NCBI RefSeq assembly: GCF_002874965.1
Contig: NZ_CP025624.1
Span: forward strand, 1,302,001 to 1,366,000
Length of the DNA: 64,000 nucleotides
Direction: 5' to 3'
From: Pseudomonas sp. NC02
Lineage (GTDB): Bacteria; Pseudomonadota; Gammaproteobacteria; Pseudomonadales; Pseudomonadaceae
Of the stretch, positions 14,261-41,879 are shown one piece after another (positions within the stretch are counted from its first letter, which is position 1; each line of letters begins with the position of its first letter). The notes under the pieces were generated by a model. The model was not told the DNA's origin and did no database searches. It saw nothing but the letters and a program-made list of their open reading frames with translations. The position numbers and the translations under genes were made by a program.

Positions 14261-14288
14261 GGAACCATTTTAAGTGGATTACCACAGA
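14261..14288 (+). promoter_or_regulatory. hrp box (HrpL-type ECF sigma promoter) 1
   Basis: GGAACC-N15-CCACAGA, a perfect match to the hrp-box consensus GGAACC-N15/16-CCACNNA recognised by the type III secretion sigma factor HrpL in plant-associated pseudomonads. It lies 61 bases before the ATG of the next gene, in intergenic DNA and in the correct orientation. Confidence 0.85.
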
Positions 14289-14349
14289 TTCCGTACTGGC
14301 CAGCAGCGCTGGATCGGTTATCTCGGATACTTAATTTGGAGTCACTTGA

Positions 14350-14604
14350 ATGGACATTCCTCGCGTAAACAACTCGTCTTCCCCATTCACTGCAGGTGCG
14401 GGGGGAGGTGATTCGCGACTTCAGCAATTGGAACAAGAGATTCAGAAGTTGAAGAACCAGATCGCCCAAGGAGGCGGTGGTGCACAGGGCGCGCAGGGCG
14501 AAGAAAGCCTTGAGGAAAGGCTCAAGAGGCTCGAGGCGGAGCTGGCCCAACTCAAAGGGCAGGCGGCTCCGGAGCAGGATAACTCGGCGCAAGTAAGCTA
14601 CTGA
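14350..14604 (+). CDS. Small coiled-coil protein under hrp-box control (unknown, FlxA-like style)
   Basis: An 84-residue protein with no Cys or Trp. The first 23 residues are Ser/Gly/Asn-rich and unstructured in style (MDIPRVNNSSSPF...), a pattern compatible with a type III export signal. Two predicted coiled-coil helices follow (about 24-40 and 51-71, rich in Leu, Gln, Glu, Lys) joined by a Gly-rich linker. This organisation resembles small FlxA-like proteins, but similarity is weak. ATG 14350 has GGAG eight bases upstream. It has its own hrp box and its own terminator, so it is a single-gene unit. Function unknown; helper or substrate of a type III system is an inference. Confidence 0.75.
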   Translation: MDIPRVNNSSSPFTAGAGGGDSRLQQLEQEIQKLKNQIAQGGGGAQGAQGEESLEERLKRLEAELAQLKGQAAPEQDNSAQVSY

Positions 14605-14779: not shown

Positions 14780-14807
14780 GGAACCGTATTGCGTAACGCA
14801 CCACAGA
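14780..14807 (+). promoter_or_regulatory. hrp box 2
   Basis: GGAACC-N15-CCACAGA, again a perfect HrpL-type promoter. It shares TCTGGAACC and CCACAGA with hrp box 1, while the spacer differs, so the motif is conserved and the flanks are not. Confidence 0.85.
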
Positions 14808-14813
14808 AGCGAT

Positions 14814-15047
14814 GTGATTTACACGAGTCGGGGCGAGAAGGTGGCGATAGATATTGCTGCAATAAGCAACATGGTGAACATGCTCAGGGGGCACGAGAAG
14901 CTGGAAATGCTCGACGCCGAGGATCATAAGCTCAAGCACTTGCTCGACAAGCTGTCGGAACATGGCTACGGCGGGAAGATAGAGCTACCAGCCGAGGATC
15001 CCAACCGACCTGTCCGGTTCGACGACCCGAAAAAAAACCCACAGTAA
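14814..15047 (+). CDS. Small protein under hrp-box control, unknown function
   Basis: The open frame from GTG 14814 gives 77 residues, but that start is only seven bases after the hrp box -10 half, where transcription itself should begin. GTG 14841 (68 residues, GGGG seven bases upstream) or ATG 14871 (58 residues) are more likely starts. The protein has a helical central part (NMVNMLRGHEKLEMLDAEDHKLKHLL) and a Pro/Asp/Lys-rich tail (LPAEDPNRPVRFDDPKKNPQ). No domain recognised, no signal peptide. It is followed directly by a terminator, so it is a one-gene unit. A small effector, chaperone-like protein or regulator of a type III system are all possible. Confidence 0.65.
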   Translation: MIYTSRGEKVAIDIAAISNMVNMLRGHEKLEMLDAEDHKLKHLLDKLSEHGYGGKIELPAEDPNRPVRFDDPKKNPQ

Positions 15048-31707: not shown

Positions 31708-31735
31708 GGAACGTTTGCCCGTGGTGCTCCACTCA
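31708..31735 (+). promoter_or_regulatory. hrp box 3 (one mismatch)
   Basis: GGAACG-N15-CCACTCA fits the HrpL consensus except for G in place of C/T at position six of the upstream half. It lies 82 bases before the next start codon, same orientation. Confidence 0.72.
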
Positions 31736-31740
31736 GAATT

Positions 31741-31786
31741 GTCTGATTGACAGACGTCGTTGTCGGGGCCGCAAGCCTGCGGTCCC
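31741..31786 (+). other. Two hairpins in the leader of the hrp-box gene
   Basis: GTCTG-ATTGA-CAGAC at 31741-31755 is followed by GGGGCCGCA-AGCC-TGCGGTCCC around 31765-31786. Both lie between hrp box 3 and the start codon, so they would form the 5' end of that mRNA. Neither has a T-run. Confidence 0.55.
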
Positions 31787-31817
31787 GATGAACAACAATG
31801 AGTTCATGGAGTGTCAT

Positions 31818-32084
31818 ATGTTTATTTTGTCTGCCCTGGCAGCTTTCAAAGGTGCTTTCCTGGGGTCACTGCTGGGCAATCTGTTGCCTGGTTCCAATAA
31901 AGAAGCTGATACGGCGCGACCGCACAAGCCCGGCCATGGACGGCCCGGTTTCAACCACGGCCATCACTCCCGACCAACGGGGCCTGTCCTGCCTGCGCGG
32001 CCCAAGCCGTATCACCAGGCGCCGGTGCATGAGGCCCACCAACCCTACCAGAGGTCGTCGGCACTCTTTCCGATCCATCGGTAG
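31818..32084 (+). CDS. Small His/Pro-rich protein under hrp-box control, unknown function
   Basis: An 88-residue protein from ATG 31818 (GGAG six bases upstream); in-frame starts at 31788 and 31806 are alternatives. It has a hydrophobic N-terminus (about 2-23, FILSALAAFKGAFLGSLLGN) and then a tail very rich in His, Pro, Arg and Gly (HGRPGF..HGHHSRP, PYHQAPVHEAHQPYQ). I recognise no family. The hydrophobic part could be a membrane segment or an amphipathic export signal. A one-gene unit between two hrp boxes; a type III-related role is an inference from the promoter only. Confidence 0.68.
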   Translation: MFILSALAAFKGAFLGSLLGNLLPGSNKEADTARPHKPGHGRPGFNHGHHSRPTGPVLPARPKPYHQAPVHEAHQPYQRSSALFPIHR

Positions 32085-32092
32085 CCGCTGAC

Positions 32093-32124
32093 TCGAGGCA
32101 GCCCGGGAACCACTCGGGCTGCCT
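32093..32124 (+). terminator. Hairpin after the His/Pro-rich gene, overlapping hrp box 4
   Basis: AGCCCG-GGAACCACT-CGGGCT is a six-base stem (32100-32120) whose loop contains the upstream half of hrp box 4; CTT-type T content is low. It could end the upstream transcript while serving as promoter DNA for the next. Confidence 0.4.
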
Positions 32125-32133
32125 TGCCACTCA
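32106..32133 (+). promoter_or_regulatory. hrp box 4
   Basis: GGAACC-N15-CCACTCA, a perfect HrpL-type promoter. It shares CCACTCAGA with hrp box 3 and stands 37 bases before the next start codon. Confidence 0.85.
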
Positions 32134-32169
32134 GAGGGGGCTTTTGACCATAGATATCGAGGAGTGTGT

Positions 32170-32361
32170 ATGATTTTTCCAGTACTGGTTTCACCACTGC
32201 ACCTGTTGGGGGCTGTATTTGGAATAGGGCCGAATTTCGGTCGGTCCAATGGCAATGGCCAGCCCGAGATCAACATTAATATCAAAACCGAAAACAACAC
32301 CACCAACAGCAGCAACAGCAATGCCGTGGGTAGTGATTTGCCTTGCAAGTGCCGCTATTAA
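32170..32361 (+). CDS. Small Asn/Thr/Ser-rich protein under hrp-box control, unknown function
   Basis: A 63-residue protein from ATG 32170 (GGAG five bases upstream; GTG 32164 is in frame). It begins with a hydrophobic segment (IFPVLVSPLHLLGAVFGIG), continues with an Asn/Gly stretch and a run of the type INIKTENNTTNSSNSN, and ends in CKCRY with two Cys. Its overall plan, a hydrophobic head and a polar low-complexity tail, matches the upstream hrp-box gene although the sequences are not similar. No family recognised. A terminator follows at once. Confidence 0.65.
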   Translation: MIFPVLVSPLHLLGAVFGIGPNFGRSNGNGQPEININIKTENNTTNSSNSNAVGSDLPCKCRY

Positions 32362-32394
32362 AAAAAACGCCCTGAATAGTTCAGGGCGTTTTTA
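32361..32394. terminator. Bidirectional terminator
   Basis: A-run, stem ACGCCCTGA-ATAGT-TCAGGGCGT and T-run. It serves the rightward hrp-box gene and the leftward DUF4197 gene, which ends at 32410. Confidence 0.93.
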
Positions 32395-39287: not shown

Positions 39288-41879
39288 TTAAGCAGCGGCC
39301 ACAGGCTCTTGCTTCGGTGCCGGTTTCGGCAGCGACGACAGGAACGCCATGATCAGCGCCGCCACATACGGCAGCGACTGCACCAGCAACATCACCACCC
39401 AGAAGCGCATGTCATTGCTTGGCAGCCCCTGCACCAGGTAAATCCCCAGTGCCGCACCCCACAACAGCAGCATGATGAACATCTCTTCCCGGGCTTCGGA
39501 AATCGCCACCCAGAAACCGTGGTTATCGGCATTCTTCGGTGTACGGAAGAACGGAATGCTGGTGGTGAAGAACCCGTACAGCACCGCCTTGGCGATGGTG
39601 TGCGACAACGCCAGCCCGGCCAGTGCCGCGCAGAACGCATCTTTCAGGTTCACACCCACCGCACGACGGTAGAGGAAGATGATCTTGCCGACCTTGAACA
39701 CGAACAACGCCAGTGGCGGGATCGCGAAAATCAGCAGCGGCGGGTCAACCCGCGTCGGCACGATAATCATCGCCGCCGACCACAACAAGGCGCCCACGGT
39801 GAAGAAGATGTTCATGCCGTCGGCCACCCACGGCAACCAACCCGCGAGGAAGTGGTAGCGCTGGCCACGGGTCAGCTCGGTGTCCTTGCCGCGCAAGAGG
39901 CTCGCAGTGTGACGCTTGATGATCTGGATCGCGCCGTAGGCCCAGCGGAAACGCTGTTTCTTGAAGTCGATAAAGGTATCGGGCATCAGGCCCTTGCCGT
40001 AGCTGTCGTGGTAGTACGCCGCCGACAGGCCCTTCTCGAAGACCCGCAGGCCCAGCTCGGCATCCTCACAGATGCACCAGTCGGCCCAGCCCAGCTCTTC
40101 CAGCACCGAGCGACGGGTCATGGTCATGGTGCCGTGCTGGATGATCGCGTCACGGTCGTTGCGGGTGACCATGCCGATATGGAAGAAGCCTTTGTATTCC
40201 GCGTAGCAGAGCTTCTTGAAGGTGCTTTCGTTCTGGTCGCGATAATCCTGTGGCGACTGCACCACGGCGATTTTCGGGTCGGCGAAGTGCGGCACCATGT
40301 GCTTGAGCCAGTTTGGCGACACGCAGTAATCGGAGTCGATCACCGCGATCACTTCGGCATCCTTGGCGGTGTGCGGGATCAGGTAGTTCAGTGCGCCGCC
40401 CTTGAAACCGGCCAGGGGCGAGACGTGGAAGAACTTGAAGCGCGGGCCGAGGGTTTCGCAGTAGTCGCGCACCGGCTCCCACACGGCCGGGTCCTTGGTG
40501 TTGTTGTCGATGATCAGGACTTCGTAGTCCGGATAATCGAGGGCGGCCAGGGCGTCGAGGGTCTGTTTGACCATCTCCGGCGGCTCGTTGTAGCACGGCA
40601 CGTGGATCGAGACTTTCGGGCGGTAGTCCGAATCCCCTTCAACCGGCAGGAATTCACGCCGGCGTTTGTGGGTCCAGACTGCTTCGGCCAGCTCATGGGC
40701 TTCGGTCAGCAACACGATAAATACGCCCAGGGCGCCGAGTGCCAGCAGGAAGCCCACCGTCAAGCTGAACCAGGTGCTGTATTGCTGGCTGTAGTCATAA
40801 CCGATCCACACCAATACCGACCCGCACAGGAACGCGATAAAGGTCAGGAACGTACGGCCGCGCTGGCGCAGGGCCGAGCCGTCGATCATCAGCAGGGTCA
40901 GGGACAGCAGCGCAAGCACCACCGAGCCGATCGCCAGCACTCGCCATTGCGGAATCGCGACCACCGGGCCATCAAAGTTGAATTTCTGCTGGCGTGCGGC
41001 GTTGAACACGCCCCAATAGGCGCCTACAGAGCCTTCGTCGCTGGCTTTCCATGGCTGGTCAAACGCTTCGATCACGAAGTAGTTGTAGCCCTGGCGGTTC
41101 AGCGTGTTAACCAACGTGCGCAGGTAAATCGCTTGGTCGGCGGGGGAGGCGTCAGCACCGCCACGCATCCGTCCGTTGCTCGGCCAGCCAACCTCCGACA
41201 GCAACAGCGGCTTTTTCGGGAAGGTCTTCTTCAGGTCCCGTGCGCGATCGAGGACGAACTGGCCGGCCTTGTCCACCGGGATATGTTCCCAGTACGGCAG
41301 GATGTGCGCGGCGATCAGGTCGACGTGCTTGGCCAGTTGCGGGTTGTGTTCCCAGATGTGCCATTGCTCTGAGGTGGTTACGGGCACCTTGACGGCGGCC
41401 CGTACCCGATCCAGCAGCACGATCAGCGCTTCCGGAGTGATTTCCTCACGGAACAGCGCCTCGTTGCCCACCACTACCCGCACTACGCTGCGGGAGCTGT
41501 TGGCGATTTCGATGGCGCGCTGGATCTCGCGCTCGTTGCGCTCGAGGTCCGGACTGATCCAGATCCCCAGGGTCACCCGCAGGCCGAATTCTTCCGCCAG
41601 CTTGGGGATATCCCCCAGGGTGCCGTCGACCGAGTAGGTACGGATGTTGTCCGTCAGCTTGCTCATGATCGCAAGGTCCTGACGCATTTGATCGTCGGTC
41701 GGATACTGGTCTTTCTGTGGGTACTGGCCTTGCTGGAACGGCGAGTACGAAAAACCGGAGATCTGCTCGGGCCAGTTAGGGGCATTGACCGGGCGGTTGA
41801 TCAGCGCCCAGAAGCCGGTGAACAGCGCGGCAATTGCCAGCACCACCACCAGGTTGAGTCCAAATTTACGCGATGACAT
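39288..41879 (-). CDS. NdvB-like glucan synthase: GH17-like domain fused to GT2 glycosyltransferase
   Basis: An 863-residue membrane protein. After an N-terminal membrane segment (about 8-28), residues 40-300 resemble a family-17 beta-1,3-glucosidase/transglucosylase, with VVVGNEALFRE and LLLSEVGWPSNGR carrying the likely acid/base and nucleophile Glu. Membrane helices lie at about 310-400, then a processive GT2 domain from about 420 (VSIHVPCYNEPPEM, then the DSDYCVSPNW Asp site) with the QxxRW motif QRFRW near 641, and C-terminal helices. Pseudomonas NdvB makes periplasmic beta-1,3-glucans; the same role is likely here. The start is ATG 41879; the frame opens further to 42008. Confidence 0.85.
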   Translation of the reverse strand: MSSRKFGLNLVVVLAIAALFTGFWALINRPVNAPNWPEQISGFSYSPFQQGQYPQKDQYPTDDQMRQDLAIMSKLTDNIRTYSVDGTLGDIPKLAEEFGLRVTLGIWISPDLERNEREIQRAIEIANSSRSVVRVVVGNEALFREEITPEALIVLLDRVRAAVKVPVTTSEQWHIWEHNPQLAKHVDLIAAHILPYWEHIPVDKAGQFVLDRARDLKKTFPKKPLLLSEVGWPSNGRMRGGADASPADQAIYLRTLVNTLNRQGYNYFVIEAFDQPWKASDEGSVGAYWGVFNAARQQKFNFDGPVVAIPQWRVLAIGSVVLALLSLTLLMIDGSALRQRGRTFLTFIAFLCGSVLVWIGYDYSQQYSTWFSLTVGFLLALGALGVFIVLLTEAHELAEAVWTHKRRREFLPVEGDSDYRPKVSIHVPCYNEPPEMVKQTLDALAALDYPDYEVLIIDNNTKDPAVWEPVRDYCETLGPRFKFFHVSPLAGFKGGALNYLIPHTAKDAEVIAVIDSDYCVSPNWLKHMVPHFADPKIAVVQSPQDYRDQNESTFKKLCYAEYKGFFHIGMVTRNDRDAIIQHGTMTMTRRSVLEELGWADWCICEDAELGLRVFEKGLSAAYYHDSYGKGLMPDTFIDFKKQRFRWAYGAIQIIKRHTASLLRGKDTELTRGQRYHFLAGWLPWVADGMNIFFTVGALLWSAAMIIVPTRVDPPLLIFAIPPLALFVFKVGKIIFLYRRAVGVNLKDAFCAALAGLALSHTIAKAVLYGFFTTSIPFFRTPKNADNHGFWVAISEAREEMFIMLLLWGAALGIYLVQGLPSNDMRFWVVMLLVQSLPYVAALIMAFLSSLPKPAPKQEPVAAA

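Follow-up and report, generated by a model that had tools for sequence, protein, structure and literature searches.

The closest described system to the locus reported here is the HrpL/RspL regulon, with which it shares the sequence and spacing of the promoter box as well as a sigma factor whose gene adjoins the rsp/rsc cluster. Further points of comparison are the harpins, which are small, low-complexity hrp-box products that by definition hold no Cys, and the 5'-terminal stem-loops that stabilise mRNA, for example in ompA. Putative RspL-dependent effectors have been reported for strains A506, SS101 and BG33R (PMC3390384), WCS374 and WCS417 (PMC6647874, PMC4509608), and WH6 (PMC2997014), while the function of rsp type III systems in fluorescent pseudomonads has been called enigmatic (PMC3390384). 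As far as the available parts of these reports go, their lists resemble our genes in naming hypothetical proteins behind hrp boxes, some of which may stem from the same locus, but most of them required effector-like N-termini, and the main texts in those parts give neither a hotspot nor a leader. Compared by eye, the WH6 box table (PMC2997014) holds no box from this locus, and in the parts of main texts covered no description of the locus or its leader was found. Our locus differs from the known regulon in that the sixth base of the box is often G or T, that most boxed genes have a structured leader in common, and that small ORFs are replaceable at a single site; the common leader is newly described here.

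The window analysed, a 64,000-nucleotide stretch of Pseudomonas sp. NC02, contains two boxed small genes between mexK and the DUF4197 gene, and both boxes and both ORFs were present as claimed by a sequence-only reading of this DNA, each ORF with a Shine-Dalgarno sequence. All features given here lie on the + strand. The first hrp/rsp box (GGAACG-N15-CCACTCA, 31708..31735) is followed by an 82-nt leader up to the start codon (31736..31817), which holds hairpin 1 directly 3' of the box (GTCTG-ATTGA-CAGAC, 31741..31755), hairpin 2 (31759..31793) and a Shine-Dalgarno GGAG (31808..31811) that is kept in 16 of 17 leaders of its family (family A, see below). The encoded 88-aa family A protein (31818..32084) has a hydrophobic head, a His/Pro-rich tail and a C-terminal Arg. 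A strong hairpin with a 14-bp stem (32094..32126), possibly the terminator of the 88-aa gene, overlaps the second hrp/rsp box (GGAACC-N15-CCACTCA, 32106..32133), which precedes a Shine-Dalgarno AGGAG (32160..32164) and the gene of a 63-aa family B protein (32170..32361) with a hydrophobic head, a DININI-type Asn/Thr/Ser-rich tail and a C-terminal Arg-Tyr. Between this gene and DUF4197, an A-run, the inverted repeat ACGCCCTGAA..TTCAGGGCGT and a T-run (32362..32393) form what, from its sequence, is likely a two-way terminator.

Loci of named Pseudomonas genomes were taken from a DUF4197 protein scan (the best 80 of 190) and the gap was cut in each, which together with the window gave 81 gaps. 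The core synteny had been described as conserved, and mexK was indeed found beside DUF4197 in 78 of the 80 loci (best 80 of 190), but the gap between them varied from 50 to 4,673 bases in these 78. We identified 51 boxes (GGAACN-N15/16-CCACNNA) in 46 of the 81 gaps (best 80 of 190 loci plus the window), all of them oriented like mexK and none on the opposite strand; 20 shuffle sets gave 0–1. The other 35 gaps were boxless, and the 20 of these that were inspected were either short (65–172 bases) or held other genes, often LysE-like transporters as judged by eye. A reverse test by protein similarity retrieved 25 loci in the gap (17 of family A, 8 of family B), and every one of them was boxed at the position expected, 23 by full matches and two (L079 and L081) with one mismatch; since these loci were found through their proteins and were boxed anyway, the association with the box is not circular. 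One weak similarity match in L106 lay outside the gap and was dropped. At the DNA level, the gap of the window matched only two others among 144 relatives, across the part with the 88-aa gene. Seven boxless gaps of length 632 (L048, L049, L056, L059, L062, L070 and L092) carry a 197-aa ORF that is LysE-like by eye, and the site thus accepts other cargo.

Within the window, the pattern GGAACN-N14-16-CCACNNA occurred five times against 0.39 expected (highest among 100 shuffles: 3), which agrees with the claim that four sites in this stretch exceed chance, whereas across the whole 6.89-Mb genome the motif was not enriched, GGAACY-N15/16-CCACNNA giving 20 matches versus 42 for the reversed pattern. 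The motif alone therefore proves little, and conviction comes from its conservation in relatives. The further claim that all sites sit at the right place and spacing suits box 31708, which lies 82 bp before its ATG as in relatives (57–92 bp), but not box 32106, which lies 36 bp from its ATG and overlaps a strong hairpin, nor box 14780, which lies 6 bp from a GTG ORF. A matrix of 35 conserved N15 boxes, with box 31708 among them and box 32106 outside, had G or T as the sixth base in 20 of the 35 and scored box 31708 at 30.1 (itself in the matrix), box 32106 at 22.9 (outside it) and the fifth window match (GGAACG-N15-CCACATA, 39341-39368) lowest at 12.5; this last match is probably due to chance. 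The two further boxes of the window are 519 bp apart (regions 14261-14604 and 14780-15047). The first precedes the gene of an 84-aa coiled-coil protein just below the Pfam FlxA cut-off, and the second a 77-aa ORF with a GTG start; by eye, the latter box resembles the one given for WH6 gene 1252 (PMC2997014).

The ORFs downstream of the gap boxes encode 60–144 aa, and 49 of them were sorted by eye into families A (17), B (10), C (9), D (5), E (4) and F (4), with the ORF of L087 standing alone outside these. One more box, the 51st, in L091, precedes an ORF that by eye belongs to family C but is left outside the ORF counts on account of its start codon; the start of the L072 ORF was set to the family E start, and the family A genes behind the mismatched boxes of L079 and L081 are not part of the family counts. 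The sequence-only reading had seen one body plan without sequence similarity in two proteins, and this observation holds, now for at least six families. A common ancestry of all families was rejected: in hhalign comparisons family B paired with C alone (probability 70%, 13 columns), D and F gave a weak link (48%), and family A had no match above 4%. No Pfam or NCBIfam family exceeded its cut-off for eight representatives, the Cornifin hit of a family D member reaching 33.8 bits (cut-off 34.8). A family A profile retrieved 37 proteins from a set of 5.8 billion, of which those with names were called 'hypothetical protein' and those with listed organisms all came from Pseudomonas, and the 63-aa protein as sole query gave two matches (98% and 86% identical). 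Where dN/dS could be computed (six closest pairs listed per family), values of 0.12–0.55 pointed to purifying selection, as did the 0.27 of the 88-aa protein against L033, and the tail was the most variable part within family A. The 88-aa gene shows all features of the boxed family and is a typical member of it. In family D, the protein of L071 (5766-6197) carries tandem KPKPPEYC-type repeats and is 144 aa long against 104 aa in L041, which amounts to a repeat expansion.

At least six small-protein families replace each other at this one site. Their distribution on a DUF4197 tree appears patchy, with 32 state changes over 81 rows (best 80 of 190 loci plus the window); the tree was built quickly, and support is weak for 29 of its 78 inner branches. 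Copy number of families A and B was scanned in a set of 24 genomes, made up of the window's genome, 12 whose locus has only A, seven whose locus has only B and four whose locus has neither of them. Family A was single in 13 genomes and B in eight, both occurred together only in the window's genome, and no second copy of A or B was found elsewhere in the 24 genomes at E up to 0.001. Two-gene loci numbered seven including the window (best 80 of 190 loci plus the window), always A with B or C. Such pairs, together with the turnover and the glycine-spaced hydrophobic heads, would be explained if the products were small antibacterial peptides resembling two-peptide bacteriocins, and seven loci do combine family A with B or C. 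Most boxed loci, however, hold a single gene, gaps of 400–500 bases are too small to hold immunity or export genes as well, and in all 19 genomes with only A or only B the other of the two was absent elsewhere, and we consider bacteriocin-like products very unlikely. The single copy of the locus, its link to RspL and the fast swapping of its alleles point to products that work where the producer meets another organism.

The leaders between box and start codon are about 80 nt long (57–92, except for the 36 of the window's 63-aa gene), and most begin with a CCTG-N4/5-CAGG hairpin located 4–6 nt 3' of the box. The leader structure was drawn by eye, and 44 of the 49 aligned leaders (43 distinct rows) were tested for pairing, the excluded five being family B leaders that by eye are without hairpin 1. 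For hairpin 1, 97.3% of the cells in the 44 leaders were paired and 18 cells were changed on both sides; none of 500 shuffles reached the paired percentage, the two-sided changes or the covariation score, while two of the five measures were reached by shuffles (65/500 and 500/500), and slid versions of the hairpin paired in 13–44%. The stem reads GTCTG/CAGAC in the window, whereas most relatives have either GCCTG/CAGGC or ACCTG/CAGGT, and L034 shows a U-G step. At hrp boxes, transcription should start about where this palindrome sits, and its symmetry and position would also suit an operator at which a second regulator binds the DNA, with no RNA hairpin formed; the spacing between CCTG and CAGG, however, varies between 4 and 5, and the U-G of L034 stands midway between the C-G that is common and the U-A of the window, which makes an operator unlikely in our judgement.

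We favour an RNA hairpin. The segment 31737-31825, with the leader of the 88-aa gene, folds with an MFE of −33.4 kcal/mol (z −3.69). Most leaders of family A have a counterpart of hairpin 2 (76.7% of cells pair; mean z −1.85 once hairpin 1 is taken off the leader), and the covariation score of both hairpins together in family A was reached by 13 of 500 shuffles; in families B and C hairpin 2 is weak, being unconvincing in B (mean z −0.25) and hardly supported in C (−0.71). RNAalifold predicted no pairs over all 49 leaders, and on family A it returned hairpin 1 plus a pairing of the box with the ribosome-binding site, which was set aside as the box should not be transcribed. Like the stem-loops of the ompA type, hairpin 1 is placed at or near the 5' end, before the ribosome-binding site, but unlike these it goes with an ECF-sigma promoter and a single locus, and it has no match in Rfam; between 31000 and 33000 the sole Rfam hit was Thr_leader, near the terminator and with a score far short of the gathering score. 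A covariance model of box plus hairpin (R1) was trained on the 44 rows, the window's included, and in the window's genome gave one strong match, at the 88-aa gene (54.8 bits, a training row). In a leader search of 274 genomes of the class under strict filters, matches at E up to 0.001 were found only in the window's genome. RsmA/CsrA, whose site is ANGGA, was considered as a partner of the loop; the AUGGA loop of most family A leaders fits, but in the window, in L033 and in L034 the loop is AUUGA, and the other families are without a GGA loop, and hence this candidate is not general.

That ORFs without detectable similarity share a leader hairpin at a single locus is, to our knowledge, unusual and suggests post-transcriptional control within the regulon. 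One tentative idea, which we would call rather improbable as it stands, is that promoter and structured leader form a fixed chromosomal docking site for exchanged, unrelated small exported proteins, with the leader contributing by coupling translation of whichever ORF comes next to the type III programme.

The second gene of the window departs from this plan, being a true family B member whose leader has been shortened and is in effect missing. The sequence-only reading had noticed neither this displaced, leaderless box nor the common leader and the one-locus swapping. Its box lies 36 bp from the ATG, as against 57–92 bp elsewhere, and scores 17.2 bits with R1, hairpin 1 being absent. This closeness, the missing leader and the overlap with the 14-bp hairpin behind the 88-aa gene would fit a chance match inside that hairpin, a doubtful though not negligible reading given that the box shows the full consensus, that its matrix score of 22.9 falls within the 17.3–33.9 of the 35 matrix boxes and that all eight homologous family B genes are boxed. 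The last ~24 nt before the ATG moreover look, by eye, like the terminal part of the leader in L032, which is what an internal deletion would be expected to leave behind. From the sequence, the simplest reading is such a deletion, joining box 32106 to the ribosome-binding site, and we predict with reasonable confidence that the box is functional.

The candidate regulator is encoded in the same genome, where rspL (181 aa, C1:1006762-1007307) adjoins rscV in a cluster near 1.0 Mb that has boxes of its own. Boxed loci occurred in 45 of 64 RspL-positive and in 0 of 15 RspL-negative genomes (79 genomes, from the best 80 of 190 loci without L049), three of the 15 having a 30–31% identical sigma factor that was counted as absent. 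A sample of 398 Pseudomonas genomes, taken under strict filters, including the window's and partly overlapping the 79, was searched with R1, which matched 54 genomes with E no higher than 0.01, 45 of them with E no higher than 1e-7. RspL was found in 120 of the 398 (E up to 1e-30, some only 42–54% identical), including all 54, and the strong R1 match thus fell in 45 of 120 RspL-positive versus 0 of 278 RspL-negative genomes; among the 64 genomes with an RspL of the subgroup type, 45 had the strong match and 19 had none. We opened 29 of the 44 other strong-match genomes, and all 29 loci adjoin DUF4197.

HrpL-type control, as proposed in the sequence-only reading, is likely, RspL being encoded beside rscV and the genomes without RspL being without boxed genes. 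The comparison with genomes lacking the regulator, which that reading had suggested, gave counts in its favour (0/15 and 0/278) that are nonetheless confounded with descent. On the DUF4197 tree (best 80 of 190 loci plus the window), RspL changes three times and the boxes 14 times; in the three independent RspL contrasts the boxes follow in about two and never go the opposite way (sign test p 0.5), which gives no statistical power, and descent may explain much of the co-occurrence. The correspondence is also not complete in single genomes: the RspL-positive L095 and L097 have no box, and in G313 the rspL match covers only residues 82-179, yet the family A gene is open. L105 (labelled P. putida), which supplies one of the three contrasts, is RspL-negative, groups on the DUF4197 tree with the species that carry family F and has an empty gap of 50 bases, a possible joint loss of RspL and the boxed gene. 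In G437 (L149, L150), rspL matches occur in two frames and the tail of the family D protein departs by eye from that of L058, which may reflect either joint decay or sequencing or assembly errors.

Taken from the genome data, the window pair probably belongs to an RspL-controlled, allele-swapping accessory locus of the type III programme, at which many fluorescent Pseudomonas species have one or two very small, quickly evolving genes, and the window would hold one version of this single-copy, fast-swapping locus in the regulon of the HrpL-type sigma factor. Box conservation and co-occurrence suggest that RspL would transcribe each small gene from its hrp box, with the transcript in most cases starting at about the short hairpin; in many cases a second hairpin would come next, ahead of the ribosome-binding site. 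The leader, of which hairpin 1 is supported by the pairing tests, would probably stabilise the mRNA or time its translation during type III induction. The products (60–144 aa) have mostly hydrophobic, glycine-containing heads that may insert in or bind to a membrane, and fast-changing, low-complexity tails. Working alongside the type III machine, they would have their place of action at the envelope or beyond the cell, for example as secreted harpin-like or pore-helping accessories, and contact with a host or predator may drive the swapping. With harpins they share small size, low complexity and origin from hrp-box genes; unlike harpins, many members hold Cys (two in the 63-aa protein, none in the 88-aa protein), and no family match was found for the eight representatives. 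The locus offers a small, testable target for the function of rsp type III systems.

The RspL-type boxes, which in the same genome also precede larger effector-like ORFs, would be expected as well if the products were ordinary injected type III effectors that are merely short and fast-evolving. All three P. syringae substrate patterns were, however, found in only 8 of 50 proteins and in neither window protein, whose N-terminal 50 residues hold 3 and 5 Ser. A Ser content above 10% over that stretch was reached by only 9 of the 50 proteins, and the heads are hydrophobic. Such N-terminal patterns are not absolutely required, according to one report (PMC3338616). Since the patterns mostly fail, we did not file the proteins as effectors, and we hold ordinary effectors to be an improbable reading. 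A somewhat better, if still minor, prospect is that the products stay in the membrane of the producer, as small inner-membrane or stress proteins that are co-expressed with the T3SS and not secreted. The hydrophobic N-terminal stretch (best 18-residue Kyte-Doolittle mean 1.24–2.01 in families A and B), the lack of Lys/Arg at positions 2-8 in 42 of 50 proteins, and helix 2-20 in a low-confidence single-sequence structure model of the 88-aa protein (mean pLDDT 66.5) would agree with this; the model of the 63-aa protein gave nothing firm (pLDDT 57.4). The frequent swapping of whole families, however, suggests an outside partner, and within family A it is the tails that vary most, both of which speak against such retention.

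Elsewhere in the window's genome (G000), boxes at C1:2252983, C1:4385406 and C1:4912521 (L017, L022 and L023) precede ORFs of 431, 323 and 488 aa, respectively, whose polar N-termini make them look like type III effectors, as judged from their sequences. The same genome encodes a third FHIPEP protein (C1:4495114-4497066, L030), besides a probable FlhA and the RscV of the rsp cluster, which perhaps belongs to a second type III system.
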